NCBI RefSeq assembly: GCF_011752065.1
Contig: NZ_JAAIJY010000002.1
Location: 62,001-126,000 of the forward strand
DNA length: 64,000 nt
From: Actinomyces sp. ZJ308
GTDB lineage: Bacteria > Actinomycetota > Actinomycetes > Actinomycetales > Actinomycetaceae
Direction: 5' to 3'
The position numbers were made by a program, and so were the translations under genes. Below, piece after piece: positions 1-12,818 of the stretch. Each line of letters opens with the position of its first letter. Positions within the stretch are counted from its first letter, which is position 1. Below the pieces are notes generated by a model, which was given only the letters and a program-made list of their open reading frames with translations, had not been told where the DNA came from and searched no databases.

Positions 1-35
1 CGCACCCGTACGCGTGACATGTCCCCGTCGGTGGC
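1..35. repeat. Fragment of GGGGAC/GTCCCC dispersed intergenic repeat
   Basis: The window opens in a CGTACGCGTGACATGTCCCCG-like segment that resembles the right half of elements at 4672-4775, 6464-6567, 20530-20655 and 31483-31625. The left half lies outside the window. It sits just upstream of a dps gene. Confidence 0.5.
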
Positions 36-72
36 CAGCCTGCCTCAAGACAAACGGCTTAGGGTGGGTGGC

Positions 73-582
73 ATGAGTGCAGAGACCAGAGCAGAGACCG
101 CAGCCGCACCATCCGTCACCTTCGCCTTCACTGCCTCCGCCGCCCTGAGCGACAGCCTCCAGCGCGTGCTGGTCGACCTCATTGCGCTGGGCATCGCCAC
201 CAAGCAGGCCCACTGGAACATCGTGGGTGCGAACTTCCGCGACCTTCACCTGAACTTCGACGACGTCGTCGGCATCGCCCGCGAGGGCTCCGACGAGGTC
301 GCCGAGCGCATGCGGGCCATCAACGCGACCCCCGACGGCCGCCCGGCCACCGTCGCCGCCGACTCCACCGTCCCGACCCTGCCCAAGGACGAGATCACCG
401 TCTCCGAGGGCGTCGCCTACGTCGTCTCCGCCATCGAGGCCGCCGTGGCCACGCTGCGCGGCGTGCACGACGCCGTCGATGACGAGGACCCGACGTCGGC
501 CGGCATCCTGGAGGACCTGACCGGCAAGCTCGAGCAGCAGGCCTGGTTCATCTCCTCGCAGGACCGCAAGCCCGTGCGTTGA
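73..582 (+). CDS. dps: Dps family DNA-binding ferritin-like protein (copy 1)
   Basis: A 169-aa Dps mini-ferritin. The family oxidises Fe(II) with H2O2 at sites between subunits of a dodecamer, stores iron and can protect DNA. All five ferroxidase-type residues are visible with canonical spacing: H47, H59, D63, D74 and E78 (KQAHWN ... DLH ... D ... D-x3-E). I chose the ATG at 73 because a purine-rich AGGGTGGGTGG precedes it and because it aligns with the start of the paralog at 1972; an upstream in-frame ATG at 19 would add 18 unlikely residues. A 13-bp perfect-stem terminator follows at 601-642. The paralog 1.4 kb downstream is most similar from residue ~15 onward. The family call is secure; cargo and DNA binding are not tested here. 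Confidence 0.93.
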   Translation: MSAETRAETAAAPSVTFAFTASAALSDSLQRVLVDLIALGIATKQAHWNIVGANFRDLHLNFDDVVGIAREGSDEVAERMRAINATPDGRPATVAADSTVPTLPKDEITVSEGVAYVVSAIEAAVATLRGVHDAVDDEDPTSAGILEDLTGKLEQQAWFISSQDRKPVR

Positions 583-600
583 GCGCGGCGTCCGACATCC

Positions 601-642
601 GACGACGGGCGGTTCCGGCCACTTCCGGGACCGCCCGTCGTC
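601..642 (+). terminator. Rho-independent-type hairpin after dps copy 1
   Basis: Perfect 13-bp stem: GACGACGGGCGGT (601-613) pairs with ACCGCCCGTCGTC (630-642) around a 16-nt loop, 18 nt after the dps stop. There is no clear T-run, as is common in high-GC actinobacteria. Confidence 0.7.
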
Positions 643-762
643 GCTGGAGAGCCGAAAGACGGACCTCCCGCGACGAACGTCGAGACACGCTCGTGACCTT
701 CGCGGTAGTGTCGACGGGTTGGTTTCCGCCGGGTTGAATCCGGCCGACTGGGAGGAGCCCCT

Positions 763-1467
763 GTGACACGTGTCGAGAGCCGCCCCGTGAACCGGGTCGG
801 AGCCCGCCGTTGGACTGCCGTGCTGGGCTGCCTGCTGCTGGCCGGCTCGCTGACTCTGAGCGGCTGCTCGTCCAGCAACTCCAGGTCCGGAGAGAAGAGC
901 GCCGCGAGCGGCGCGGGCACAACCGGTCACTCGACGTCGTCGCCCTCGGGTGTCGCCACGGCGTCGAGCAGCGCCGGGCCGGTCACGGCGGCCTCCCTGT
1001 CCGACGCCCAGCTGGGCTACACCATCACCGCCATCCCGGCCGGCCTGGATGTCACCCAGGTCAAGATCCTCCAGGACTTCGTGGCCTACGACCAGATGTC
1101 CTGGCGGCTCTGGGTCGGCGGCGGCCAGGACGTCAGCAAGGTGCCCACCGTGACCACCGGCAACCTCCAGCAGCAGCTCACCGATGACGCCACCAATATG
1201 CAGAACAAGGGGGAGAGGGCCAAAACCCCGGTCAGGGTCGCGGTCTCCGAGGTCGCCATGAGCGCCGACGGCCAGAGCGCCACCGTCTCCTACTGCGTGG
1301 ACATGACGCAGGTGACCTTCGTTGACGCTCAGGGCAAGGACGTCACGGACCCCACTAACAAGGCCCAGATCCCGGCCAGGAACACGATGGTGCCCGGAAG
1401 TGACGGACGCTGGCTCGCCTCCGAGGAGGAGGAGACCGGAGAGCCGAATACCTGCTCGGCCGGCTGA
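763..1467 (+). CDS. Secreted lipoprotein of unknown function
   Basis: A 234-aa protein starting at GTG. It has a basic n-region, a hydrophobic segment (about residues 19-33) and a lipobox LSGC at about residues 32-35, followed by a Ser/Gly/Thr-rich linker of ~45 residues typical of actinobacterial lipoproteins. The C-terminal ~150 residues contain alternating strand-like segments and a cysteine pair (one in TVSYC and one in the final NTCSAG) that could form a disulfide outside the cell. The fold resembles small secreted lipoproteins that I cannot name. GGGAGGAGCC just upstream serves as ribosome-binding site. It is monocistronic, between dps copy 1 and the small-peptide cassette. Export and lipidation are inferred from the motif; the function is unknown. 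Confidence 0.85.
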   Translation: MTRVESRPVNRVGARRWTAVLGCLLLAGSLTLSGCSSSNSRSGEKSAASGAGTTGHSTSSPSGVATASSSAGPVTAASLSDAQLGYTITAIPAGLDVTQVKILQDFVAYDQMSWRLWVGGGQDVSKVPTVTTGNLQQQLTDDATNMQNKGERAKTPVRVAVSEVAMSADGQSATVSYCVDMTQVTFVDAQGKDVTDPTNKAQIPARNTMVPGSDGRWLASEEEETGEPNTCSAG

Positions 1468-1488
1468 TATCTCCGGAGCCGCCGTGAC

Positions 1489-1576
1489 ATGATTGCTCTC
1501 GCCTTTCTTCGACACCTTCTCCCGAAACATCCAGTGTCCTGTCGGGGAAGAAGGGAGTCGGAAGGAGGTGGGGGTC
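1489..1576 (+). promoter_or_regulatory. Conserved leader of small-peptide cassette, copy 1
   Basis: This ~88-nt segment aligns almost base for base with the leader of the second cassette (5683-5775, reverse strand). Both keep CCTTCTCCCG and, ~20 nt later, CGGGGAAGAAGG or CGGGGAGGAAGG, which can form a bulged ~10-bp stem just before the GGAAGGAGGTG ribosome-binding site. One pair changes from U-A to U-G without breaking the stem. This suggests a structured 5' leader; the promoter itself is not identified. Confidence 0.5.
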
Positions 1577-1720
1577 GTGTCCAAGCCGAAAGGCCGACAC
1601 GGGCAAGTCCGCAAGGACAAGGAAACGGCCCGGAAGGTGAGCGAACTATTAACCGCAATCGCTCGCCTGATCCGGGCCGTCAGTGTCCTTGTGGATACCC
1701 TCGGCAAGTGGTTCGGATGA
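1577..1720 (+). CDS. 47-aa cationic amphipathic peptide (copy 1)
   Basis: A small gene starting at GTG, 6 nt after an unusually strong ribosome-binding site (GGAAGGAGGTG, 1560-1570). The product starts MSKPKGRHGQVRKDKETARK, has 11 Lys/Arg against 4 Asp/Glu, then a helix-forming hydrophobic stretch (VSELLTAIARLIRAV...) ending GKWFG. There is no signal peptide. An inverted paralog at 5539-5682 is 34/47 identical, with only conservative changes in the helical half and several synonymous changes, so the protein itself appears to be under selection. Size, charge, the C-terminal Trp and the lack of a leader recall leaderless bacteriocins or phenol-soluble-modulin-like peptides, but a small DNA- or membrane-binding regulator is equally possible. 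A hairpin follows at 1733-1766. Confidence 0.7.
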   Translation: MSKPKGRHGQVRKDKETARKVSELLTAIARLIRAVSVLVDTLGKWFG

Positions 1721-1732
1721 GCCGCTTACCTA

Positions 1733-1766
1733 GGGGAGCCGTCCGGTAGCCGCCGGAGAGCTCCCC
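1733..1766 (+). terminator. Hairpin ending small-peptide cassette, copy 1
   Basis: GGGGAGCCGTCCGG (1733-1746) pairs with CCGGAGAGCTCCCC (1753-1766) apart from two internal mismatches, 12 nt after the stop codon. The same hairpin, with one wobble pair, closes the second cassette at 5489-5523. Confidence 0.6.
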
Positions 1767-1881
1767 GTCATTATGCCAGCCGGCTCGCGCCAGTGTCCAT
1801 GCGCTGCCGAGTGCCGTCGTCGTCCTGTTGATGGGTGAGGAGCTGCTACCCGCCATCAGCTTGGTCGAGGGGGTGTTCGCG

Positions 1882-1915
1882 CAGGTGAGCCTTGGTTCCA
1901 GGTGAGGCTTGGCTT
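1882..1915. promoter_or_regulatory. Tandem 17-bp operator-like repeats upstream of dps copy 2
   Basis: CAGGTGAGCCTTGGTTC (1882-1898) is followed directly by CAGGTGAGGCTTGGCTT (1899-1915), 14/17 identical. The second copy runs into TGCCTG, giving a partly palindromic AGGCTTGGCTTGCCT that matches about 12 of 19 positions of the DtxR/IdeR box. It lies 57-90 nt before the dps start, where a metal repressor would act. Binding is inferred. Confidence 0.4.
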
Positions 1916-1971
1916 GCCTGTGAATCATAAGTAACACCCACAGTGGCTGGCGAAGTAGTAAGGTAATAGCC

Positions 1972-2469
1972 ATGAACGCAGACACCATGACTACCCCGTC
2001 CATCAACCTCTCCTTCACCGCCTCCGCCGCCCTGAGCGACAACCTCCAGCGCGTCCTGACCGACCTCATCGCCCTGGAGCTCGTGGGCAAGCAGATCCAC
2101 TGGAACGTCGTCGGCCCGAACTTCCGCGACATCCACCGCAACCTGGACGACGTCGTCGACATCGCCCGCGAGGGCTCCGACGAGGTCGCCGAGCGCATGC
2201 GGGCCATCAACGCGACCCCCGACGGCCGCCCGGCCACCGTCGCCGCCGCCACCACCGTCCCGGCCGCCCCCGAGGGCGAGGTCCTCACCAGCGAGGGTGT
2301 CGCCTACATCGTCTCCGCCATCGAGGCCGTCGTGGCCACGCTGCGCGGCGTGGACGAGGACGTCGACGCCGAGGACCCCACCTCCTCCGGCATCGTCGAG
2401 GACCTCATCGGCAAGCTCGAGCAGCAGGCCTGGTTCCTCTCCGCGGAGATCCGCAAGCCCGTCCGCTGA
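1972..2469 (+). CDS. dps: Dps family DNA-binding ferritin-like protein (copy 2)
   Basis: A 165-aa paralog of the Dps at 73-582, nearly identical from SFTASAALSD onward, including long stretches of identical DNA (for example around 2161-2240). H43, H55, D59, D70 and E74 occupy the ferroxidase positions with the family spacing. The N-terminus is short and lacks a lysine-rich DNA-binding tail. The start at 1972 follows AAGGTAATAGCC. Unlike copy 1 it has a long upstream region with two operator-like repeats (1882-1915), so the copies are probably regulated differently. A 14-bp stem terminator lies at 2502-2539. Confidence 0.93.
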   Translation: MNADTMTTPSINLSFTASAALSDNLQRVLTDLIALELVGKQIHWNVVGPNFRDIHRNLDDVVDIAREGSDEVAERMRAINATPDGRPATVAAATTVPAAPEGEVLTSEGVAYIVSAIEAVVATLRGVDEDVDAEDPTSSGIVEDLIGKLEQQAWFLSAEIRKPVR

Positions 2470-2501
2470 GCCCGAGGCTCGCGCCGACGCGCTGACTCAT
2501 C

Positions 2502-2539
2502 ACGTGGGGCCCACCTCCTGGCGAGGGTGGGCCCTACGT
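2502..2539 (+). terminator. Terminator after dps copy 2
   Basis: ACGTGGGGCCCACC (2502-2515) pairs with GGTGGGCCCTACGT (2526-2539), with one G-U pair and a 10-nt loop, 33 nt after the stop. Confidence 0.7.
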
Positions 2540-2659
2540 CGTGTCTGTCCGGTGTCCTCGTGCTGTTCCTGTTCTGTCCTTCACGGGCCCTGCCGTCGGC
2601 GCGGCTTGCGAGCCCTCATGTCCGGAAGGCCGCCCCGGGGCGGCCGGCACCCCGCGCCG

Positions 2660-3274
2660 TCACCTGCGCCAGTCGCCCAGCGCCCCCTCCAGGCAGCCGA
2701 GCGCCGCGTCGATGAGGCTGTGGCGCTGGTCCTCCGGGCACCCGGCGCGAACCCAGCGCAGGCAGGCGTCGTCGAGGAACCCCAGATAGCCCCACAGGGC
2801 GAAGTCGTCGCGATACCCCCGGCTGCCGCCGACGACGTCGGCCAGCGCCCTGACCGCCGCCTCGCGGGCGGCCTGGCGCACCTGCGCGGCCTCGCCCGGC
2901 TCGTGCCCGGCCAGGATCTGGTAGGCCATCCAGCCGGGGGAGCGCTCGGCGATGAAGTCCAGGTAGGTCAGGATCGAGGTGCGCACGCGGTCGCGCGCCG
3001 AGGAGCCCGGTGGCAGGGCGTCGTCGGCCTGTCGGGTGCGCTCGGCGAGCTCGTCGGTGGCGCGCTGGAGGACCTGGGCATAGATGCCGGCCTTATTGGC
3101 GAAGTACTTGTGCACCAGGGCCTCCGAGGCATGGGCCTCCTCGGCGATCGCGGCCAGCGAGACCTCCTCGTACGGGCGGCTCGCGAAGGCGCGGCTCGCG
3201 GCGGACAGGATCAGCTCGCGGCGCTCGGCGGGATCCATGCGCAGGCGCTGGCGCTTATCGGTGCGGGACGGCAT
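2660..3274 (-). CDS. TetR/AcrR family transcriptional regulator
   Basis: A 204-aa repressor-type protein. Residues ~14-60 form the TetR helix-turn-helix: RRELILSAASRAFASR, then EEVSLAAIAEEAHASEALV and the HKYFANKAGIY signature of helices 3-4. The C-terminal ~140 residues are the variable ligand/dimer domain, with no recognised effector. It is transcribed divergently from the GH13 gene at 3312, with only 37 bp between the two starts. An operator controlling both genes would have to lie in that gap, which makes the glycosidase gene a likely target (inference). Confidence 0.9.
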   Translation of the reverse strand: MPSRTDKRQRLRMDPAERRELILSAASRAFASRPYEEVSLAAIAEEAHASEALVHKYFANKAGIYAQVLQRATDELAERTRQADDALPPGSSARDRVRTSILTYLDFIAERSPGWMAYQILAGHEPGEAAQVRQAAREAAVRALADVVGGSRGYRDDFALWGYLGFLDDACLRWVRAGCPEDQRHSLIDAALGCLEGALGDWRR

Positions 3275-3311
3275 CTTGACATGCTAGCGGGCGCGGAGGA
3301 TCCTTGGAGAC

Positions 3312-4622
3312 ATGACTAGTGAGGTACCTGGAATAAGTCGTCCTGCAACGCCCGCCTGGATCGATCACGCCATCTGGTGGCAGGTCTACCCTCTCGGCGC
3401 CACCGGCGCCCCCATCCGCCCCCGGCCGGGCACGCCGCTGGCCGAGGCCGGCGCCGCCCCGCGCCTGGACCGCCTTGAGCCCTGGCTCGACTACGCCGTC
3501 GAGCTCGGTGCCAACGGGCTGTCGCTCGGCCCGATCTTCGCCTCATCCACCCACGGCTACGACACCACCGATCACCTGCGCATCGACCCCCGCCTGGGTG
3601 ACGACGCCGCCTTCGACCGTCTCGCCGAGGCCTGCCGCGCGCGCGGCCTGGCCCTCATGCTCGACGGCGTCCTCGGGCACGTCGGTACCGAGCATCCTCT
3701 CTTTCGGGCCGCCCGCGCCGGGGGAGAGGAGCGGGCTCTCTTCCGCTTCGACGACGCCGCCGGCGGGGAGGGCGGTGGGGCCGGACCCGGCTACGCCACC
3801 TTCGAGGGGCACGAGTCCCTGGCCGCCCTCAACCACGACTCCGCCGAGGTCCGTGACCTGGCCGTGCGGGTCCTGAGCCACTGGCTCGACCGCGGTGCGA
3901 GCGCCTGGCGTCTGGACGCCGCCTACGCCGTCGCCCCCGCCTTCTGGGCGAGCGTCCTGCCGGCCGTGCGCGAGCGCCACCCCGACGCCTGGTTCATGGG
4001 TGAGGTCATCCACGGCGACTATCCCGGGTTCGTCGAGGCCTCCACGGTGGACACCGTCACCCAGTACGAGCTGTGGAAGGCCACCTGGAGCTCACTGGCC
4101 GACGTCAACTTCTACGAGCTCGACTGGTGCCTCAAGCGCCACAACGAGCTGCTGGAGCGCTTCATCCCGGCCACCTTCGTCGGCAACCACGACGTCACCC
4201 GCATCGCCAGCAAGGTCGGGGCCGGTGGGGCCGCGCTCGCCGTCGTGCTGCTCATGACCGTGGGTGGGGTGCCCAGCGTCTACTACGGGGATGAGCAGGC
4301 ATTCCGCGGGGTCAAGACCGAGACCCTCGGCGGCGATGACGAGGTTCGGCCCGCCCTGCCGGCTGGGCCGTCCGAGCTCGCGCCGCAGGGGGCCTGGATG
4401 CTGCGGCTCCACCAGGACCTCATCGGGCTGCGGCGCCGGCACCCCTGGCTCGTGCGCGCCCGCACCGAGGTCACCGAGCTGGACAACCCGCGGCTGGCCT
4501 ACGACGCGGTTGGCGAGGAGGGGCAGCGGCTGCACGTGAGCCTGGCCCTGGAGCCGACCCCGCGCGCTGAGGTGCGCGCGCCGGGTGAGGCTCCGCTCGT
4601 CGTCGAGCCGCCCGCGCAGTGA
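3312..4622 (+). CDS. Glycoside hydrolase family 13 (alpha-amylase-like) protein
   Basis: A 436-aa cytoplasmic GH13 enzyme; no signal peptide. The (beta/alpha)8-barrel regions are visible: an opening IWWQVYPLG, region I as LDGVLGHVG (the usual Asn before His is Gly), region II as AWRLDAA with the nucleophile Asp, region III as WFMGEV with the acid/base Glu, and region IV as FVGNHDVTRI with the transition-state Asp. The complete catalytic set suggests an active alpha-glucan hydrolase or transferase. Substrate specificity (maltodextrin, trehalose or sucrose) cannot be read from the sequence. It is divergent from a TetR gene and is followed by a GGGGAC-type intergenic repeat. Confidence 0.88.
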   Translation: MTSEVPGISRPATPAWIDHAIWWQVYPLGATGAPIRPRPGTPLAEAGAAPRLDRLEPWLDYAVELGANGLSLGPIFASSTHGYDTTDHLRIDPRLGDDAAFDRLAEACRARGLALMLDGVLGHVGTEHPLFRAARAGGEERALFRFDDAAGGEGGGAGPGYATFEGHESLAALNHDSAEVRDLAVRVLSHWLDRGASAWRLDAAYAVAPAFWASVLPAVRERHPDAWFMGEVIHGDYPGFVEASTVDTVTQYELWKATWSSLADVNFYELDWCLKRHNELLERFIPATFVGNHDVTRIASKVGAGGAALAVVLLMTVGGVPSVYYGDEQAFRGVKTETLGGDDEVRPALPAGPSELAPQGAWMLRLHQDLIGLRRRHPWLVRARTEVTELDNPRLAYDAVGEEGQRLHVSLALEPTPRAEVRAPGEAPLVVEPPAQ

Positions 4623-4671
4623 CCGGCTCTCGCTGACCTCTCTCGCCGACCTCTCTCGCGGCTCGCGCTGG

Positions 4672-4775
4672 CGGGGACACTCTGCGCCGTCGGGGACATA
4701 ATCTCCCGGGCGGGGACGTTCGGCGCCGTCGGGGACAGAATTCCGGTCCCCGTACGCGCAGGATGTCCCCGGCTG
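4672..4775. repeat. GGGGAC/GTCCCC dispersed intergenic repeat
   Basis: Four forward GGGGAC boxes (near 4675, 4691, 4712 and 4730) are followed by reversed GTCCCC boxes, with a core GGACAGAATTCCGGTCCCCG and then GTACGCGCAGGATGTCCCC. Closely related elements occur at 6464-6567, 20530-20655 and 31483-31625, always between genes. No coding potential is apparent. Confidence 0.7.
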
Positions 4776-4791
4776 TGCTTGCGGTAGTCGC

Positions 4792-5193
4792 CTACACCTC
4801 GATCAGGGGGAGGCCTGGATGCACTGTGCTCAGGTCTCCCGGATCAGAGGTCACCACGGTGTATCCCTGTTCCTGAGCCACGAGGACGACGTGGACGTCA
4901 ACGACGTCCCGATGACCGGTTCGTCCGCACAGCAGGCCGACAGCCCTTGCCGTCATCTCATCGAGTGACATGACCCGCACGCGAGGATCAGACAGCAGTC
5001 GCGCGACCCGAGCCTGCCTCGGACCGCCCCGCCAGGCCTGTGCCACAACCCCGGCGGGCACGCTCAGGGGCAGGTCGGCCTCTAAAGCCCGCCGAAGGAG
5101 GGCGCGAACTCGGGAGTCTCCGCGTTCAAGGGCAAGCAGCGCGCCGGTGTCCAGGGTCAGACCCTTGGCGGTTCCTCTGCCGGCGGCGGTCAT
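4792..5193 (-). CDS. PIN-domain ribonuclease toxin (VapC-like)
   Basis: A 133-aa PIN-domain protein, the toxin half of a VapBC-type module; the family cleaves RNA with a cluster of acidic residues and Mg2+. Visible markers are the N-terminal LTLDTGALLAL strand with the first Asp, RDVVDVHVV with a central Asp, and VVTSDPGDL with the C-terminal Asp. The ATG at 5193 overlaps the antitoxin stop by 4 bp (ATGA), so translation is probably coupled, as is usual for these pairs. An upstream in-frame ATG at 5220 lies inside the antitoxin gene and is less likely. Confidence 0.85.
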   Translation of the reverse strand: MTAAGRGTAKGLTLDTGALLALERGDSRVRALLRRALEADLPLSVPAGVVAQAWRGGPRQARVARLLSDPRVRVMSLDEMTARAVGLLCGRTGHRDVVDVHVVLVAQEQGYTVVTSDPGDLSTVHPGLPLIEV

Positions 5194-5462
5194 GCCAGGC
5201 CCAGCTCCTTGTCCGCCCATGCCAGGTCGGAGTCGCTGACGGGGCCGAGCTCGCGGTCGAGCTCGTCCAGCAGCTGCGCCAGGCCGTCCTCCTGCTGGGC
5301 GCGCGCGACCGCTGCGCTGATGAATCCCGACACCGAAGGTGCTCGCCCCTGCTGAACGGCACGGCGAATCGAGATGACCTGCTCGTCCGGGAGGCTCACC
5401 GCAATCTTCTGAGTCCCACCGGGATCGTATCGGCGGTGAGCGAGAGGGCGCGATGTGGACAT
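5190..5462 (-). CDS. Ribbon-helix-helix antitoxin (VapB-like)
   Basis: A 90-aa protein. Residues ~18-55 (KIAVSLPDEQVISIRRAV ... SVSGFISAAVARA) fit a ribbon-helix-helix DNA-binding domain: a beta strand, then two helices with the Ser-x-x-Ile turn. The acidic C-terminal tail (LLDELDREL ... SDSDLAWADKELG) would bind and block the PIN toxin. The start at 5462 is chosen over the in-frame ATG at 5591 because the extra N-terminus runs back into the 47-aa peptide gene at 5539-5682. Such antitoxins usually repress their own operon. Confidence 0.8.
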   Translation of the reverse strand: MSTSRPLAHRRYDPGGTQKIAVSLPDEQVISIRRAVQQGRAPSVSGFISAAVARAQQEDGLAQLLDELDRELGPVSDSDLAWADKELGLA

Positions 5463-5488
5463 GCTCGTCGCCACTCCGCCATAATGGT

Positions 5489-5523
5489 GGGGAGCCATCC
5501 GGCTGCTATCCGGATGACTCCCC
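5489..5523 (-). terminator. Hairpin ending small-peptide cassette, copy 2
   Basis: GGGGAGCCATCCGG (5489-5502) pairs with CCGGATGACTCCCC (5510-5523) with a single wobble, 15 nt past the peptide stop on the reverse strand. It corresponds to the hairpin at 1733-1766. Confidence 0.6.
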
Positions 5524-5538
5524 TCGCAAGGGGCCGGC

Positions 5539-5682
5539 TCAGCCGATCCACTTGCTGAGGGCATCCACAAGGACACCGACGGCCCGGACAAGGCGAGCGA
5601 CAGCGGTCAAGACTTCGCTCACCTTCCGGGCCGTTACCTTGCCCTTGGGGACTCTGACGTGCCGACCTCTCGGCTTGGACAC
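5539..5682 (-). CDS. 47-aa cationic amphipathic peptide (copy 2)
   Basis: A paralog of the peptide at 1577-1720, on the opposite strand. It also starts at GTG after GGGAAGGAGGTG. The product begins MSKPRGRHVRVPKGKVTARK, continues with VSEVLTAVARLVRAV and ends SKWIG; 11 Lys/Arg against 2 Asp/Glu give a net charge near +9. The Ile/Val/Leu, Thr/Ala and Phe/Ile exchanges against copy 1 keep one hydrophobic helix face. The leader (5683-5775), the ribosome-binding site and the terminator (5489-5523) are shared with copy 1, so a whole transcription unit was duplicated and inverted. The antitoxin gene starts 77 nt downstream but is separated by the terminator. Function unknown. Confidence 0.7.
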   Translation of the reverse strand: MSKPRGRHVRVPKGKVTARKVSEVLTAVARLVRAVGVLVDALSKWIG

Positions 5683-5775
5683 GGCCCTCACCTCCTTCCC
5701 GGCTCCTTCCTCCCCGGCAAGGACAACGGGTGTTCCGGGAGAAGGTGCCGAAGGGAGGCGTCACCCATCATGCCA
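5683..5775 (-). promoter_or_regulatory. Conserved leader of small-peptide cassette, copy 2
   Basis: The reverse-strand counterpart of 1489-1576. CCTTCTCCCGG and CCGGGGAGGAAGG can pair around a loop containing ACACCCGTTGTCC, directly before the ribosome-binding site. Leader conservation as strong as that of the coding part suggests post-transcriptional control. Confidence 0.5.
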
Positions 5776-5889
5776 ACGGGTACCGACACTCTGGCCGGGA
5801 TCGTGGTCTCTTGCCGGCGGCGATGAGACGGAACTGCGATTCGGGCCGGCCTTGACCCTGACGTAGCGTGAGGGACAAGGCTCATCCGC

Positions 5890-6402
5890 ATGAGCACCTT
5901 CAACGCATTCGAGATGAGCCCCGTCCCCGCCCCCGGTGAGGACGCCCAGCCACCTGAGCCCTTCCGCGGCATCTACGGCATGCCGATGTTCGTCACCGTC
6001 CCAACATCCGACCTGGACGCCTCGGTCGACTTCTGGACGGAGGCGCTCGGCTTCTTCATCCTGTTCACCATTCCCGGCCGGCTCGTGCACCTGCGCCGCT
6101 GGGCCTTCCAGGACGTCCTCCTGGTACCGGCCCCGCAGGAGCCCACGCCGGCTGACGGCCCCACGATGAGCGTCAGCTTCTCCTGCGTCCTGTCCCAGAT
6201 CGACGAGATCGCCGCGGCCTGCGAGCAGCGTCGACCGGGCAGCGTCACCGGCCCGCGCATCACCCCGTGGAACTCCTCCGAGGTCGAGGTCACCACCCCC
6301 GAGGGCGTGCGCGTCGTCCTCACCGCCGCCAGGCCCCTCGACCCGCACAGCGAGCAGGCCGACGGCTTCCGGCGCGTCGGCATTGAGGTGCCCGAGTCCT
6401 GA
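5890..6402 (+). CDS. VOC (glyoxalase/bleomycin-resistance) superfamily protein
   Basis: A 170-aa single-copy vicinal-oxygen-chelate fold protein. After a ~30-residue leader, MFVTVPTSDLDASVDFWTEALGF is the typical first beta-alpha-beta unit (given here only as a landmark near residues 36-58), followed by strands RLVHLRRWAFQDVLLV and a second module ending VVLTAARP. The metal ligands of glyoxalase I are not clearly present, so a binding or resistance role is as likely as an enzymatic one. It is monocistronic and followed by a GGGGAC repeat. Confidence 0.8.
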   Translation: MSTFNAFEMSPVPAPGEDAQPPEPFRGIYGMPMFVTVPTSDLDASVDFWTEALGFFILFTIPGRLVHLRRWAFQDVLLVPAPQEPTPADGPTMSVSFSCVLSQIDEIAAACEQRRPGSVTGPRITPWNSSEVEVTTPEGVRVVLTAARPLDPHSEQADGFRRVGIEVPES

Positions 6403-6463
6403 CCGCTGTCCTCTGAGGTCGCCCCCTCACCGCTGCCTTGTCGTCCCACCGACGCCCCGGCCG

Positions 6464-6567
6464 GGGACACTCGACGCCTACGGGGACAGAAATCCCGTCC
6501 CCGCACGCGCAGGATGTCCCCGGCTGGGATGGGGATGCACCCGGCCGAGTGGAATGTCCCCGGCTGT
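6464..6567. repeat. GGGGAC/GTCCCC dispersed intergenic repeat
   Basis: It carries GGGGACACTC, GGGGACAGAAATCCCGTCCCC, then GCACGCGCAGGATGTCCCC and a final GAATGTCCCC. Close match to 4672-4775. It lies between a forward VOC gene and a reverse Nudix gene. Confidence 0.7.
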
Positions 6568-6589
6568 GCGCGGAGGAAGGGCGGCAGCG

Positions 6590-7090
6590 TCAGACCGCGG
6601 GGTGGAAGCGCGCGCCCGAGGCCGGGTCGGCCAGCCAGGCCAGCGCCGCCTCGATGCGCCCGGGCGTCGAGCCCAGCAGCGGCGCGGGCAACGCGTCCGG
6701 CTCGAACCAGCCCACGTGCGTGGACTCGTCGTCGGCCACGTGGGCCCGGGCCGCGCTGCCGGGCCGCGCCCGCCCCACGAAGTTGATATCCATGAAGACG
6801 CAGTTGTCCCCGTTGGGGAAGGCGAAGGGCTCGCCCGCGGTCACGCTCGTGAGCGCCAGCACCTCCACGTCCACGCCGGTCTCCTCCAGGCACTCGCGCC
6901 GGATCGCCACCGCCGGCTGCTCACCGGGCTCGGGGATGCCGGAGACCACCGCCCACCGCCCGTTGTCGGCCCGCCGTCCCAGCAGGATCCGCCCGGCCTC
7001 GTCGACGACGACGATGCTCACCCTGGGCAGCCACAGCATGTCGTGCCCGATCTTCTGCCGCAGGGAGACGATGAACTCAGGAGTCGCCAT
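6590..7090 (-). CDS. Nudix hydrolase
   Basis: A 166-aa protein with a complete Nudix box (G-x5-E-x7-RE-x2-EE-x-G, from GIPEPGE to RRECLEETG, residues ~50-72). The family hydrolyses nucleoside diphosphates linked to other groups, using divalent metal bound by the box glutamates. The flanking RVSIVVVDEAGRILLGRR strand and GRWAVVSG are typical of MutT/NUDT-type enzymes acting on nucleotides or nucleotide sugars. Substrate unknown. It is the first gene beyond the hairpin that closes the feoB1 operon. Confidence 0.9.
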   Translation of the reverse strand: MATPEFIVSLRQKIGHDMLWLPRVSIVVVDEAGRILLGRRADNGRWAVVSGIPEPGEQPAVAIRRECLEETGVDVEVLALTSVTAGEPFAFPNGDNCVFMDINFVGRARPGSAARAHVADDESTHVGWFEPDALPAPLLGSTPGRIEAALAWLADPASGARFHPAV

Positions 7091-7163
7091 GCCGTAAGCC
7101 TAGACGATCGGCTTTCGCAGAGGCAGCCGGCGGTCGCCGGATGCTGGCCCGCGCACACGCACA

Positions 7164-7219
7164 TCAACAAAATCTTCATACGCAACACGGCTCCGCGTCG
7201 CATATGAAGATTTTGTCGA
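7164..7219 (-). terminator. Covarying intergenic hairpin (family HP1, copy 1)
   Basis: 27-bp stem: 7164-7190 pairs with 7193-7219 around a CGG-CT-CCG apex. The four imperfect pairs are A-C or C-A on the forward strand and therefore G-U in reverse-strand RNA, the strand of feoB1, whose stop is 21 nt upstream. The second copy is at 21623-21678. It is likely a terminator or 3'-end stabiliser for feoB1 mRNA. Confidence 0.7.
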
Positions 7220-7239
7220 AATAGGTGGCTCCGCCTGCC

Positions 7240-9339
7240 TCACACGAGCATGGCGACGATGAACCGCGTGAGCGCGGCCATCACCCAGGCGGTGACGAAC
7301 ATGTAGCTGTAGGCGATGACCGGCCACTTCCAGGTGCCGGTCTCACGGCGCATCGCGGCCGCCGTCGACATGCACTGGAGGGCGTAGACGAAGAACACGA
7401 GGATGGCCGCGATCGTGGCCGGGTTGAACAGCTGCTCCCCGGCCTTGTTGGTCAGGGTGTCGTGCTGGTAGGTCATACTCGCCAGGTGGGCGCTGGGCTG
7501 CTCGGGGTCCTCGGCGGCGGCGATCTGGCCGAGGGTGGCCACGAAGGTCTCGCGCGCCGCCAGCGAGGAGAGCACCGCGACGTTGATGCGCCAGTCGAAG
7601 CCCAGTGGCTCGAAGACCGGCTGGACCGTCTTGCCGATCGTCGCACCCCAGGAGTGGTCCATCGTGTAGGAGGTCTTCTGGGCCTCCAGGGCCTTGTCCA
7701 GCTCCTCGGCGTCGGTGACGATCTGTCCGTCGTCGCCCTTGACCGTGGACGACGACGGGTCCTCCACCGCTGCCGAGACGGCCGCGCACTCGGCGTCGGC
7801 GGCGCAGTAGGCGTTGAACTGCTCCTCGGAGCGCATCGGCATGTTGAGCAGCACCCACAGGATGAGCGTGGTCAGGGTGATGACGGTCCCGGCCTTCTTC
7901 ATGAAGCCCTTGCAGGCGTCCCACACCATGAGCCCGACGGCGCGCGGCCGCGGCAGCCGGTAGGGCGGCATCTCCATGTAGAAGGGCAGGAGCACCCCGC
8001 CGCGGTCGGTGAGGCGCTTGACCACCCAGGCCGCCAGCATCGCGGAGACGGCCCCCAGCAGGTAGAGGGCGAACATGACGGTGCCGCGCGCCCCCAGGGG
8101 CCCGATCTTCGCGTCCCCGGGCACCATGAGGGAGGTGAGCAGGACGTAGACGGGCAGGCGCGCCGAGCAGGTCATGAGCGGGGCGGCCAGCATCGTGGCC
8201 ACCCGGTCCTTCGCGCTGGGCAGTGTGCGGGTGGCCATGATGCCGGGGATCGCGCAGGCGAAGGAGGACAGGAGGGCCACGAAGGCCCGCCCCTCCAGCC
8301 CGGCCCGGCTCATGATCTTGTCCATGAGGAAGGCGGCTCGGGACATGTACCCCACGCCCTCGAGGAAGGCGATGATGAGGAACATGATGATGATCTGGGG
8401 GATGAAGGTGAGCACCGCGCCGACGCCCCCGATGAGGCCGTCGCCCAGGAGCCCGGCGATGAGCGGGTGGGACTCGTCCAGCCAGCCGTGCACCAGCTGC
8501 CCCAGGGCGCTGAATCCTCCCTCGACGGCGTCCTGGAGCGGCGCGGCCCAGGTGAAGATCGCCTGGAAGAAGACGTACATGATGGCGAAGAACACCAGGG
8601 ACCCCAGGACCGGATGGAGCAGCACCCGGTCGACGGCGGCCGTGACGCGGTCCTGTTGGGGCGCCTCGTAGTCGGCGGCGGCGAGCACCGAGTCCGCCCA
8701 GGAGGCGACCTCGCCGGGCGCGCTCGGCGGTGGAAGCGGCGGGCGCTGCCAGGTGGCCACCTCGGTGAGCCGCTCGCGCAGCTCGGGCAGGCCGATCCCG
8801 CGGTTGCCGACCACCCGCACGGCCGGGATCCCCAGGGCATCGCCCAGCGCCGCCACGTCCAGGCGTCCGGCGCGGCGCGTGAGCTCATCGGTCATGGTGA
8901 CCACCAGGCACGTGGGCAGGTCCAGGGCCAGGGCCTCGGCCACGAAGTTCATCCCCCGCCGCAGCGTCGTGGCGTCGACGACGACCACCAGGGCGTCGGG
9001 GACGGAGACGGCCTGAGAGGAGTCGGTGAGGACATCGCGCACCACCTGCTCGTCGGGGCTGATCGGGTCCAGCGAGTAGGCCCCGGGCAGGTCCTCGATC
9101 GTCAGGTCGGTCTCACCGATCCGGCAGGTTCCCAACGAGCGCGTGACGGTGACGCCGGGGTAGTTGCCGGTCTTGGCGCGCAGACCGGTCAGGGCGTTGT
9201 AGATGGAGGTCTTGCCGGCATTCGGGGCGCCGGCCAGCGCGATGCGTCGGGCCCCGGCCACCAGCGTCTTGGAGCTGCCCGAGCCGCAGTGGCAGTCCGG
9301 GGCGCCGGGGACGTCGTGCGTGGAGCAGTGGTCGCTCAT
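7240..9339 (-). CDS. feoB: Ferrous iron transporter FeoB (copy 1)
   Basis: A 699-aa inner-membrane Fe(II) transporter with an N-terminal G-protein domain. Residues ~14-20 hold CHCG, a possible metal site. G1 is GAPNAGKTS, the switch region GNYPGVTV, G3 DLPGAYSLDP; the G4 position reads TMTDE rather than a plain NxxD. The membrane part has the two conserved Gate-type segments (LTFIPQIIIMF and FVALLSSFACAIPG) with the Cys expected in the pore. A Cys-containing extracytoplasmic loop (YCAADAEC) lies between later helices. The ATG overlaps the feoA1 stop by 4 bp. Its C-terminal third is almost identical to FeoB copy 2, indicating a recent duplication or gene conversion. Confidence 0.95.
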   Translation of the reverse strand: MSDHCSTHDVPGAPDCHCGSGSSKTLVAGARRIALAGAPNAGKTSIYNALTGLRAKTGNYPGVTVTRSLGTCRIGETDLTIEDLPGAYSLDPISPDEQVVRDVLTDSSQAVSVPDALVVVVDATTLRRGMNFVAEALALDLPTCLVVTMTDELTRRAGRLDVAALGDALGIPAVRVVGNRGIGLPELRERLTEVATWQRPPLPPPSAPGEVASWADSVLAAADYEAPQQDRVTAAVDRVLLHPVLGSLVFFAIMYVFFQAIFTWAAPLQDAVEGGFSALGQLVHGWLDESHPLIAGLLGDGLIGGVGAVLTFIPQIIIMFLIIAFLEGVGYMSRAAFLMDKIMSRAGLEGRAFVALLSSFACAIPGIMATRTLPSAKDRVATMLAAPLMTCSARLPVYVLLTSLMVPGDAKIGPLGARGTVMFALYLLGAVSAMLAAWVVKRLTDRGGVLLPFYMEMPPYRLPRPRAVGLMVWDACKGFMKKAGTVITLTTLILWVLLNMPMRSEEQFNAYCAADAECAAVSAAVEDPSSSTVKGDDGQIVTDAEELDKALEAQKTSYTMDHSWGATIGKTVQPVFEPLGFDWRINVAVLSSLAARETFVATLGQIAAAEDPEQPSAHLASMTYQHDTLTNKAGEQLFNPATIAAILVFFVYALQCMSTAAAMRRETGTWKWPVIAYSYMFVTAWVMAALTRFIVAMLV

Positions 9340-9788
9340 CGGCGCAGCTCCTTCCCATCGGGCCCGGCGACCGGCCTGGTGAGGACGGTCGCCTCGCCTG
9401 TCTCCGTCTCGGTCCCGGTGACGGACCCAGTGACGGACTCAGTCACGAGCTCGACGGCGTCGTCGGCCTCGGCAACGGCCTCGACCCGGACGATGCGGGC
9501 CTCGTGGTGGCGCAGGCACAGCTCGTAGTCGGCGACGCGGTAGACCACCGGGTCGCCCAGCGGTGCGCGGCGCAGTGGCGTCACGATCCGGCCGGGAACG
9601 AAGCCCAGGTTGCTCAGCCGCCTGATGATCGGGCCGCTGGCCGCGTCCTCCAGGAGGCCGACGACGCGGCCGGCGGTGCCCAGGCGCAGGTCGGACAGGG
9701 ATCGCTGCGCCGGAGGCGGGGTGTCGGGCGGGGTGCCTGTGGTGCCGGTGGGGGCCGACGTGCTGTGGGATGAGACTGCAGTCGTCAT
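9336..9788 (-). CDS. feoA: FeoA-domain protein (copy 1)
   Basis: A 150-aa protein. Residues ~29-105 form an SH3-like FeoA domain (SDLRLGTAGRVVGLL ... LSNLGFVPG ... VVYRVADYELCLRHHEARIV). FeoA is a small cytoplasmic partner needed for FeoB activity. It is longer than the usual ~80 residues, with a Pro/Thr-rich N-terminus and a C-terminal tail containing the near-repeat TESVTGSVTG. First gene of the feoA1-feoB1 operon, coupled to feoB by an ATGA overlap. A DtxR-like box lies ~107 nt upstream (9895-9913). Confidence 0.9.
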   Translation of the reverse strand: MTTAVSSHSTSAPTGTTGTPPDTPPPAQRSLSDLRLGTAGRVVGLLEDAASGPIIRRLSNLGFVPGRIVTPLRRAPLGDPVVYRVADYELCLRHHEARIVRVEAVAEADDAVELVTESVTGSVTGTETETGEATVLTRPVAGPDGKELRR

Positions 9789-9894
9789 GTTGTCCTTGGG
9801 TGTGCTCGGAGCTTCTCAGAGTCCTTGTGCCTGTGCCCTCTGCCTTTCCTCGGCGTCGTCTCGACGCGGGCGGCGCGCATCGACCGCCTCAGTC

Positions 9895-9913
9895 TGAGGT
9901 AAGGCTTTTCTAT
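9895..9913 (-). promoter_or_regulatory. Candidate DtxR/IdeR iron box upstream of feoA1
   Basis: TGAGGTAAGGCTTTTCTAT matches about 13 of 19 positions of TTAGGTTAGGCTAACCTAA. It sits in the 285-nt gap upstream of feoA1, so iron-dependent repression of the operon is a reasonable inference. The upstream region of feoA2 holds a weaker GTAAGGC-containing relative at 13252-13258. Confidence 0.45.
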
Positions 9914-9929
9914 CGGCAGATTAACACAC

Positions 9930-9996
9930 CGAGCCGGTCATCTTTCGCGTAGCCCTACGGAAAAACGGTAGGGCTACGCGAAAGATGACCGGCTCG
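9930..9996 (-). terminator. Long perfect intergenic hairpin (family HP2, copy 1)
   Basis: A perfect 29-bp inverted repeat: arms 9930-9958 and 9968-9996, loop 9 nt. The arm begins CGAGCCGGTCATC and ends CGTAGCCCTAC. It lies 77 nt past the nfu-like stop on the reverse strand and before the feoA1 promoter, so it would insulate the two feo operons. Relatives are at 27916-27982 and 30419-30485. Confidence 0.75.
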
Positions 9997-10073
9997 ATGA
10001 TGGGGAGTGATGGAGAGGCGGGTTGGCGAACGAGGGGAAGGCCCGGCTCGGTGATGGGGAGGGGCCGGCGCGG

Positions 10074-10610
10074 CTACCTCTCGATGCGGCGGACCTCGAC
10101 CAGCCAGGGGCAGCGACGCCGCAGTAGGTGCTCGAAGCGCGCGTGCATCGTGATCTCGGCGGCCGGACACTCGTCGCAGGCCCCCTCCATGGCCACCTCG
10201 ACGACGCCGTCGCGCACCGAGCGCACCACGAGTGAGCCTCCGTGGCTGTTGACGAAGGACCCCAGTGAGCCGCCGGCGATCTGTCGGGCGGCCGCCTCCA
10301 GGGCGTCGTCGGGCCCGGATGCGTGGGCGGTGGCGCTCCCTTCCCAGGCCTCCGGGGCGCCCAGGGCGTCCACCAGCGCGCTGCGCACCCGGGCCCCCTC
10401 CGCTCGCCAGCTGTGGCCGGGGCTCAGGAGGGTGAGCACCGCGCCGTCGTCGACCCGCACGGAGCCCAGGGTGCCGTCGTCGATGAGTGCCTGGAGCAGC
10501 GCCGGGGCGTGGGCCACCTCCCCGGTGAAGGGCAGCAGGCCGTCGGGGACGACCCACCTCAGCACGTCGGGATCCGGTGTGGTCACCGGGTGCGTGGGAA
10601 CGACGGGCAC
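10074..10610 (-). CDS. Nfu/NifU-type Fe-S scaffold or carrier protein
   Basis: A 178-aa protein. The N-terminal ~90 residues match the Nfu N-terminal domain (start PVTTPDPDVLRWVVP, related to the TPNPNALKF signature). The C-terminal ~75 residues form the NifU C-terminal domain with the Fe-S ligating pair in GACDECPAA. The family transfers [4Fe-4S] clusters to target enzymes. It is the third gene of feoA2-feoB2-nfu, 54 nt after feoB2, which would couple imported iron to cluster supply (inference). Copy 1 of the feo operon lacks such a gene. Confidence 0.85.
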   Translation of the reverse strand: MPVVPTHPVTTPDPDVLRWVVPDGLLPFTGEVAHAPALLQALIDDGTLGSVRVDDGAVLTLLSPGHSWRAEGARVRSALVDALGAPEAWEGSATAHASGPDDALEAAARQIAGGSLGSFVNSHGGSLVVRSVRDGVVEVAMEGACDECPAAEITMHARFEHLLRRRCPWLVEVRRIER

Positions 10611-10664
10611 GGCCGCCTCACCTCTCCTGAGTGTCCTGTCATCCGTCTGCTCATCGTCTCACTC

Positions 10665-12818
10665 TCACAGGAAGGCGGCGACGAGCGCGTGGGTGATCGC
10701 CGCCATGACCCAGGCGGTGGCGAACATGTAGGTGAAGGCGATGACCGGCCACTTCCAGGAGCCGGTCTCGCGGCGCATCGCCCCCGCCGTCGCCATGCAC
10801 TGGAGGGCGTAGACGAAGAACACGAGGATCGCGACGACGGTGGCCGGGTTGAACAGCTGGTCGCCCGCCTTGTTGGTCAGGGTGTCCTGCTGGTAGGTCA
10901 TGGTGGCCAGGTGGGCGCTGGGCTGCTCGGGGTCCTCGGCGGCGGCGATCTGGCCGAGGGTGGCCACGAAGGTCTCACGCGCCGCCAGCGAGGACAGGGT
11001 GGCCACGTTGATGCGCCAGTCGAAGCCCAGCGGCTCGAAGACCGGCTGCACGGCCTTGCCGACCGTGGCCGCCCACGAGTGATCCATCGTGTAGGAGGTC
11101 TTCTGGGCCTCCAGCAGCTTGTCCAGCTCCTCGGCGTCGGTGACGATCTGCCCGTCGTCGCCCTTGACCGTGGACGACGACGGATCCTCCACGGCCGCGG
11201 AGACGGCCGCGCACTCGGCGTCGGCGGCGCAGAAGGCCTCGAACTGGGCGTCCGAGCGCATGGGGACGTTGAGCAGCACCCACAGGATGACGGTGGTCAG
11301 GGTGATGATCGTGCCGGCCTTCTTCAAAAAGCCCTTGCAGGCGTCCCACACCATGATGAGGATCGTGCGCACACGGGGCATGCGGTAGGGCGGCATCTCC
11401 ATGTAGAAGGGCAGCAGGATGTTGCCGCGGTCGGTGAGCTGCTTGACCACCCAGGCGGCCGCCATCGCGGAGACGGCCCCCAGCAGGTAGAGGGCGAACA
11501 TGACGACGCCGCGCGCCCCGAAGGGGCCGATCCTGGCGCCGCCGTCGACCGTCAGCGAGATCATGATGACGTAGACGGGCAGGCGCGCCGAGCAGGTCAT
11601 GAGCGGGGCGGCCAGCATCGTGGCCACCCGGTCCTTGGTCGACGGCAGCGTGCGGGTGGCCATGATGCCGGGGATCGCACAGGCCAGCGAGGACAGGAGG
11701 GCCACGAAGGCCCGCCCCTCCAGCCCGGCGATGCTCATGACCTTGTCCATGAGGAAGGCCGCCCGGGACATGTACCCCACGCCCTCCAGGACGGAGATGA
11801 TGAGGAACATGATGACGATCTGAGGGATGAAGGTGAGCACCGCGCCCACGCCCCCGATGAGGCCGTCGCCCAGGAGCCCGGCGATGAGCGGGTGGGACTC
11901 GTCCAGCCAGCCGTGCACCATCGTCCCCAGCGCCCCGAAGCCGTCCTCGATGGCTCCCTTGAAGGGCTCGGCCCAGGTGAAGATCGCCTGGAAGAAGAGG
12001 AACATGATCGTGAAGAACACGATGGTTCCGGGGATGGGGCGCAGCAGGACCCTGTCGATCGCCGAGGTGATCTGGTCGCTCTGGGGCGCCTGGTAGTCGG
12101 CGGCGGCGAGCACCGAGTCGGCCCAGGAGGTGATCTCGTCGGGGTCGGTGGGCGGCGGCAGCGGGGTGCGCTGCCAGGTGGCGACCTGGGCGAGCTGGGC
12201 GCGCAGGTCGGGCATGCCGATGCCGCGGTGCCCGATGACACGCACGGCCGGGATCCCCAGGGCCTGGCCGAGGGCCGCCACGTTGAGCCGGCCCGTGCGG
12301 CGGCTGAGCTCGTCGGTCATGGTGACCACCAGGCACGTGGGCAGGTCCAGGGCCAGGGCCTCGGCGATGAAGTTCATGCCGCGCTGCAAGGTGGTGGCGT
12401 CGACGACGATGACCAGGGCGTCCGGGGCGCTGACCGTGGTCGAGGTGCCGGTGAGGACGTCGTGGACGATCTCCTCGTCGGGGCTGATCGGGTCCAGGGA
12501 GTAGGCCCCGGGCAGGTCCTCGATCGTCAGGGCGGTGTCGCCGATCTTGCAGGTTCCCATCGACCGCTGGACGGTGACGCCGGGGTAGTTGCCGGTCTTG
12601 GCGTGCAGGCCGGTCAGGGCGTTGTAGATGGAGGTCTTGCCGGCGTTGGGGGCCCCGGCCAGGGCGATGCGTCGTGACCCGGCCACCAGCGTCCTGGAGC
12701 TGCCCGATCCGCAGTGGCAGTCGGCGCCCTCATGGTGGTGGTCGCCGTGGTGGTCGCCCTGGTGCTGTCCCTGGTGCGGCCGGCCGGTGGTGTGCTGCAT
12801 GGTGTCGTGGGTGCTCAC
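10665..12818 (-). CDS. feoB: Ferrous iron transporter FeoB (copy 2), His-rich N-terminus
   Basis: A 717-aa paralog of the FeoB at 7240-9339. G1 GAPNAGKTS, GNYPGVTV, DLPGAYSLDP and the pore segments LTFIPQIVIMF and FVALLSSLACAIPG are conserved. The N-terminus differs: ~30 residues rich in His, Gln and Asp (HQGDHHGDHHHEG) precede the CHCG motif, a plausible metal-binding tail absent from copy 1. From the YCAADAEC-type loop (here FCAADAEC) to near the C-terminus the two proteins are nearly identical. The start overlaps the feoA2 stop by 4 bp. Confidence 0.95.
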   Translation of the reverse strand: MSTHDTMQHTTGRPHQGQHQGDHHGDHHHEGADCHCGSGSSRTLVAGSRRIALAGAPNAGKTSIYNALTGLHAKTGNYPGVTVQRSMGTCKIGDTALTIEDLPGAYSLDPISPDEEIVHDVLTGTSTTVSAPDALVIVVDATTLQRGMNFIAEALALDLPTCLVVTMTDELSRRTGRLNVAALGQALGIPAVRVIGHRGIGMPDLRAQLAQVATWQRTPLPPPTDPDEITSWADSVLAAADYQAPQSDQITSAIDRVLLRPIPGTIVFFTIMFLFFQAIFTWAEPFKGAIEDGFGALGTMVHGWLDESHPLIAGLLGDGLIGGVGAVLTFIPQIVIMFLIISVLEGVGYMSRAAFLMDKVMSIAGLEGRAFVALLSSLACAIPGIMATRTLPSTKDRVATMLAAPLMTCSARLPVYVIMISLTVDGGARIGPFGARGVVMFALYLLGAVSAMAAAWVVKQLTDRGNILLPFYMEMPPYRMPRVRTILIMVWDACKGFLKKAGTIITLTTVILWVLLNVPMRSDAQFEAFCAADAECAAVSAAVEDPSSSTVKGDDGQIVTDAEELDKLLEAQKTSYTMDHSWAATVGKAVQPVFEPLGFDWRINVATLSSLAARETFVATLGQIAAAEDPEQPSAHLATMTYQQDTLTNKAGDQLFNPATVVAILVFFVYALQCMATAGAMRRETGSWKWPVIAFTYMFATAWVMAAITHALVAAFL

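Follow-up and report, generated by a model that had tools for sequence, protein, structure and literature searches.

What could be the function of two inverted cassettes, each encoding a cationic peptide of 47 amino acids (aa), in the genome of Actinomyces sp. ZJ308? They are located in a stretch of 64,000 nucleotides (nt) of this strain (assembly GCF_011752065.1, contig NZ_JAAIJY010000002.1, forward-strand positions 62,001 to 126,000), hereafter called the window, whose first base is position 1. An initial annotation proposed a leaderless bacteriocin, a phenol-soluble modulin (PSM)-like lytic peptide, a type I toxin or a DNA-binding regulator; our analysis favors the type I toxin and the three other options gained no support. 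From sequence comparisons, we propose, with a probability of about 0.72, that both cassettes are type I toxin–antitoxin (TA) loci. In our best reading, the cassettes would belong to an undescribed multi-copy superfamily of such loci in Actinomyces, where their peptide (family A) has two sister families, B and C, which are unrelated peptides found at the same place in the same unit layout. This proposal is supported by the frame, its Shine-Dalgarno (SD) sequence, an antisense promoter, a covarying fold and the sister families; the last three were absent from the initial annotation.

Organization of the cassettes

Both units are about 290 bp long and carry an SD sequence, a GTG start codon and a frame of 47 codons (1577-1720 on the + strand for cassette 1, 5539-5682 on the - strand for cassette 2). 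The inverted arrangement described initially is real: arms 1540-1724 and 5535-5719 are 83% complementary, arms 1485-1561 and 5699-5775 are 75% complementary, and the left edge, leader, SD, frame and 3' hairpin are common to both cassettes on alignment. At the left edge, a sense -10 hexamer CATGAT (1488-1493, +, with a TG at 1485-1486, in cassette 1; 5767-5772, -, in cassette 2) is followed, in cassette 1, by a 5' leader (1497-1559, +) that alignment and consensus fold predict to be structured. The frame of the putative toxin is preceded in both cassettes by the SD sequence GGAAGGAGGTG (1560-1570, +; 5689-5699, -), part of which, in cassette 1, would form helix 1 with bases of the leader according to the predicted fold. 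A long hairpin lies within the frame (1609-1694, helices 6-8, in cassette 1; 5565-5650, from the fold, in cassette 2) and is the proposed end of the antisense RNA. Downstream lies a 3' hairpin (helix 9; 1733-1766, common to both strands, in cassette 1; 5489-5523, from the fold, in cassette 2).

A strict promoter scan returned one site per cassette, a sigma-70-type TGGACA-N18-CATAAT located at the right edge and facing into the frame: 1770-1799 (-) is the sole site in 1400-1900 and 5456-5485 (+) the sole site in 5400-5900. The -35 hexamer of this promoter marks the right limit of the unit, at 1799 in cassette 1 and 5456 in cassette 2; the initial annotation had located the units correctly and had drawn this limit too short. 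A putative antisense RNA, the antitoxin, would extend over 1605-1763 (-) in cassette 1, as judged from promoter and hairpin, and over 5492-5650 (+) in cassette 2, as judged from the promoter and the fold of this stretch (z -6.75), both ends being predicted in each case.

The convergent promoter is conserved well beyond the window. Of the 120 model hits kept, the tally drew on the 97 with DNA sequence at hand, 92 of which are assigned to a family (77 to A, 8 to B and 7 to C), the five unassigned hits (scores 10, 6, 7, 6 and 7) being excluded. At least 8 of the 12 consensus positions match in 79 of the 92 units versus 0.6% of 4000 random positions. The -35 provides the fairer test because it lies outside the search model, to which the -10 belongs: taken alone, it has at least 4 of 6 matches in 82 of the 92 units versus 4.7% of random positions. 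At the left edge, a hexamer with at least 3 of 6 matches to TATAAT is found in 30 of 32 intact units versus 5% of random positions. The antisense transcript would start from a conserved promoter-like element. Furthermore, 23 of the 92 units (e.g. L033 and L048), versus 0.09% of random positions, have a box like GATGAGTCTCGTCG upstream of their antisense -35, possibly the site of a regulator.

Coding capacity of the frame

The net charge (K+R-D-E) of the family A peptide, computed anew, is +7 and +9 in the two cassettes, as estimated initially (+7 to +9); its N-terminal half is basic and its C-terminal helix amphipathic. Like type I toxins, the peptides of families A (47 aa), B (46 aa) and C (52 aa) are all shorter than 60 aa, cationic and endowed with a hydrophobic or amphipathic helix. 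Selection on the peptide had been deduced initially from conservative and silent differences between the cassettes, and an estimate of dN/dS (ratio of nonsynonymous to synonymous substitution rates) had been advised. The cassette pair alone gives a pS of 0.23 and a pN of 0.13. For family A as a whole, 59 of the 82 tblastn matches listed were kept (at least 39 bits), and in 40 of these 59 places a frame of 40-52 aa opens with ATG or GTG, 38 of these frames being distinct. The pooled dN/dS is 0.69, with a stronger constraint in codons 2-12 (0.47) and a weaker one from codon 13 (0.81), and this pooled value alone is weak evidence for coding. It makes the argument from silent codons weaker than it seemed initially, probably because RNA structure also constrains third positions.

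The claim of a selected frame is nevertheless supported by a conservative-substitution test on 36 ungapped family A frames with 300 column shuffles. In frame 0, the excess is 1.44 per changed codon (z 4.1), versus -0.30 to 0.39 in the other five frames; its restriction to frame 0 supports selection on the peptide. By region, shuffles as high as the observed value number 0/200 for codons 2-12, 0/200 for codons 24-29 and 4/200 for codons 30-47. Family C is also positive (0/300 shuffles as high).

The family A peptide has no match in Pfam or NCBIfam at cut-off, nor in PADLOC at E ≤ 1, and known type I toxin families (Hok, Fst/Ldr, TxpA, AapA and others) were unmatched in Pfam and NCBIfam at cut-off, the type I toxin content of these libraries being unchecked. 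Hits to Pfam DUF2200, KleE, EAD2 and two others (E 0.017-0.22) are below cut-off or due to chance. Two matches among PDB sequences (best E 0.021 across 18 residues) and two miRNA matches returned by Rfam on window positions 1-12000 were likewise taken as chance.

RNA structure

In cassette 2, the stretch from the SD to the 3' hairpin folds at -124.4 kcal/mol (z -7.66). The consensus structure, built from 32 of the 40 intact family A units, comprises 72 pairs with 97.8% of cells paired, versus 41-53% in slid structures used as controls. Both sides have changed in 17 pairs versus 6.3 in shuffles (0/500 as high), a result to be read with the bias that the structure was derived from the tested alignment itself. 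The double changes are concentrated in helices 2, 6 and 9, and concern 4 of the 14 pairs of helix 9. Helix 4 is predicted to pair the bases before the start codon with codons 41-42. In helix 7, 4 of the 32 units have a double change, from C-G to U-A, which affects residues 17 and 35, so that amino-acid change seems to have been driven by structure. The fold of family C also covaries, with both-side changes in 12 pairs versus 4.3 (0/500 as high); further pair types are not in excess (97/500). For a family B copy in the genome of the strain, the fold has a z of -6.0.

Distribution and sister families

The genome of the strain holds four family A copies. A search with the peptide as query, as advised in the initial annotation, matched 27 of 59 genomes at E ≤ 0.1, namely this genome, 25 of the 36 others of the genus and one of 22 from other genera of the order; the repeat is therefore not fortuitous. 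The sole match among the 22 is attributed to chance, and a match in G053 (E 0.025) was rejected as it sits in a 1061-aa frame. Genomes have up to 7 matches to the peptide. When one genome per species was scanned, 51 of the 120 pattern hits were confirmed as loci; every one of these is titled Actinomyces, and they include A. oris, israelii, timonensis, ruminis, glycerinitolerans, massiliensis, denticolens, dentalis, gerencseriae, ruminicola, succiniciruminis, bovis, johnsonii and gaoshouyii. Plasmids and phages gave one match each to the family A peptide (E 7 and E 10), both attributed to chance, and viral contigs gave 51 pattern hits with the family A profile, none of them confirmed.

Covariance model R2, for the antisense half, and leader model R1 match 37 and 36 of the 49 genomes of the genus, respectively, at a cut-off of E ≤ 0.001. 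Among 21 weaker R2 hits that were read (46.8-76 bits), 8 belong to family B and 7 to family C, 2 are decayed family A units, 2 could be assigned to no family and 2 are right ends only. The units L173 (G011) and L174 (G001) are reduced to this right end, with the 3' hairpin and CATTATG. By peptide, family B is found in 7 of the 49 genomes, with two copies in that of the strain, and family C in 14. Intact members of both have an SD, a basic N-terminus, a hydrophobic helix and a 3' hairpin, and the convergent promoter is present in most of those found with R2. The second family B copy of the strain, L204, lacks the usual CATTATG edge. One member of each family was searched in Pfam and NCBIfam and gave no match. 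In 200 genomes of the Actinomycetaceae, one R2 match (L257 in G107, 42.5 bits) and one peptide-profile match (L258 in G217, E 4.4e-5 with profile A3) fall outside the genus, in other genera of the family. These weak leads may be remote relatives that carry different small peptides and hairpins; the G107 peptide has no BLAST match to family C.

Incomplete units

Among the 95 R2 hits of at least 80 bits, the leader is adjacent in 73, lies 416-1395 nt away in 6 and is absent within 3 kb in 16; 8 of the 87 R1 hits are without an antisense half within that range. Antisense halves without a leader are thus more numerous than leaders without an antisense half (22 vs 8, p 0.016). Leader-only hits score one third below the other R1 hits. 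This pattern fits retention of the antitoxin after loss of the toxin, with a weight limited by model sensitivity and shared descent. Indeed, several points temper it. Antisense-only halves score an eighth lower than paired ones (144 vs 164 bits) and fewer keep at least 8 of the 12 promoter matches (14/22, made up of 12/20 in one tally and 2/2 in another, vs 53/57), so they erode. In addition, a weak, partial antisense match lies next to G004:C18, which is among the 8 leader-only hits; as R1 and R2 moreover differ in information, the ratio of 22 to 8 is partly a matter of sensitivity. The units also share descent, so that their counts are not independent.

Some units are split. In G005, the gene of a Mutator-type transposase (L176:1533-2732, -; PF00872, E 1.5e-7) sits inside a family A unit near codon 13, and in five further split units the leader is 416-651 nt from the antisense half. 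One insert end recurs beside units of G005, G014 and G066. The right flank of cassette 2 was found in 14 other genomes, with no part of a unit there in 12. The two others, G069 and G001, have an antisense half without a leader; because both remnants start at window base 5633, a single event may account for the two cases.

Proposed mechanism and known systems

From these elements, we infer two transcripts with their ends, masking of the start, decay of a duplex, toxicity and a membrane target. The sense promoter at the left edge would produce a folded mRNA, in which pairing of the bases before the start codon with codons 41-42 would hold translation down. Once translated, this mRNA would give the 47-aa peptide, probably acting on the membrane of its own cell. 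The convergent promoter at the right edge would produce an antisense RNA of about 160 nt, spanning the 3' hairpin together with approximately the final three quarters of the frame and probably ending near the in-frame hairpin, and the long sense/antisense duplex would probably be destroyed by RNase III. The likeliest course would resemble that of txpA/RatA, the antisense RNA base-pairing to the 3' portion of the mRNA, which RNase III would remove, while the mRNA's own fold would mask the start, as for aapA.

This layout differs from several known systems. In Fst/par, convergent promoters flank a shared hairpin that is a bidirectional terminator, whereas the 3' hairpin would be the starting point of the putative Actinomyces antisense RNA. 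Sok overlaps the hok mRNA in its 5' part, whereas the overlap of the proposed antisense RNA would be with the 3' part. The peptide of aapA/IsoA is shorter than that of family A and its antisense RNA is placed differently. However, aapA/IsoA of Helicobacter pylori is also a multi-copy chromosomal family encoding a small peptide, in which an amphipathic helix is combined with charged ends, and its start is described as masked by long-distance pairing (PMC6733600, PMC8309996). The hok mRNA is folded and inert, and in the chromosomal copies of Escherichia coli insertion elements have often landed close to the toxin frame (PMC6733600); the six Actinomyces units split by 416-1395 nt, one with a Mutator-type transposase, are reminiscent of this. 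The systems txpA/RatA and bsrG/SR4 of Bacillus subtilis have a small-peptide mRNA that decays through RNase III, with an overlap of about 120 nt at the 3' ends for txpA/RatA (PMC3531473). The Actinomyces units would likewise have a small-peptide mRNA, a likeness by description, sequences having been compared via family libraries only. Unlike these prophage-borne systems, they occur in several copies per genome and in another phylum, with a basic N-terminus and a long in-frame hairpin. Many type I toxins act on the membrane (PMC8309996).

The msoT1/msoA1 type I system of Microcystis is, unlike the Actinomyces family, cyanobacterial. A 2025 paper states that, until its cyanobacterial case, Proteobacteria, Firmicutes and Tenericutes were the only phyla with known type I systems (PMC12390103). 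Searches of an open-access library for type I systems in Actinomyces, Actinobacteria, Actinomycetota, Streptomyces and Bifidobacterium, and for small RNAs of A. oris, brought up no such system among the papers listed, PMC12390103, PMC7160235 and PMC8167048 included. By layout, the family would be of type I, in a phylum without a reported case in the literature searched, with different toxins on one RNA design. A broader proposal is more tentative, its chances being somewhat less than even: the superfamily would be native to Actinomycetaceae and the first in Actinomycetota, a conserved right-hand module (3' hairpin and convergent antisense promoter) would serve at least three unrelated toxin peptides, the hairpin ending the antisense RNA would lie inside each frame, toxin sequence and antitoxin structure would co-evolve, and stand-alone antisense halves would be protective orphan antitoxins.

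Alternative explanations

Several observations weigh against a type I TA function. The strict scan missed the sense promoter in both cassettes, where the -10 is recognizable and no -35 is. Contrary to the terminator announced initially, a T-run terminator is found on neither strand of either cassette, which has a 3' hairpin only, and the 3' end of the antisense RNA is consequently a guess. The helix of family A is moderately hydrophobic (mean 0.65-0.70), the pooled dN/dS is 0.69, and codons 13-23 have no coding signal alone (126/200 shuffles as high). Masking of the translation start is predicted by helices 1 and 4 in family A and by helix 1 in family C, helices with almost no covariation of their own: both-side changes affect no pair of helix 1 in either family and 1 of the 8 pairs of helix 4. 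Finally, diversification of the apical loops between paralogues of the same genome received no support, the difference not being above expectation (p 0.35).

A leaderless bacteriocin or a PSM-like secreted lytic peptide, its expression incidentally tuned by the antisense RNA, would agree with a cationic and amphipathic peptide whose sequence lacks a hydrophobic N-terminal stretch. However, no exporter or immunity gene was recognized among the five neighbours searched, the remaining nearby open reading frames lying outside that search, as the initial annotation had already remarked for transporter and immunity genes; the number of matches per genome (up to 7) also fits poorly, and the convergent promoter and the in-frame hairpin are left unexplained by this improbable hypothesis. 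A regulatory role of two structured RNAs, one sense and one antisense, in which the frame would be incidental, is equally improbable: the dN/dS of 0.69 and the residues altered by the helix 7 double change speak for it, whereas the excess of conservative changes is confined to frame 0. In addition, coding lengths in the 32 units (142, 139 and 133) vary by steps of three and the leader by single bases, in a comparison whose rows, picked for an intact frame, favor multiples of three. It is slightly less probable still that the cassettes are a miniature mobile repeat carrying a small frame. Their copies are dispersed with unconserved flanks, their edges GGCATGATGG and GGCATAATGG are like short inverted repeats, and the right flank of cassette 2 is mostly free of any unit part elsewhere; yet divergent copies keep a left TANNNT and a right -35/-10 pair instead of matched repeats, and the left flank of cassette 1 is like those of L035, L036 and L037, which indicates an old position. 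Hardly credible, lastly, is a non-toxic peptide that binds nucleic acids or otherwise acts by itself, as its basic N-terminal half might suggest: the library searches returned no family at the thresholds given above and the sister families retain only the charge pattern and the hydrophobic helix.

Genomic context

Cassette 2 adjoins a gene (4795-5220, -) for a PIN-domain protein (PF01850, E 1.2e-6); the small frame upstream of it (5193-5462) has no Pfam match, and the pair is VapBC-like by layout. Dispersed GGGGACA...TGTCCCC repeats are found at 4663-4775 and 6453-6568, and many of the relatives compared contain pieces that resemble them. Cassette 1 is flanked by frames 19-582 and 1972-2469, which share 300 nt at 84% identity; the product of the latter is ferritin-like (PF00210) and probably a Dps. 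Further on, there are a palindrome at 7164-7219 (27-nt arms, 85% complementary, spaced by 2 nt) and two long, similar frames (7240-9339 and 10665-12818, -), which presumably encode FeoB-type iron transporters.

Significance

If each cassette is indeed a type I TA locus, such systems would be extended to Actinomycetota, in common oral bacteria, and an antisense promoter combined with an RNA fold could reveal loci that peptide homology misses. With three peptide families on one RNA layout, what such systems conserve would become directly testable. Furthermore, the leader-less antisense halves would make it possible to test the idea of orphan RNA antitoxins.

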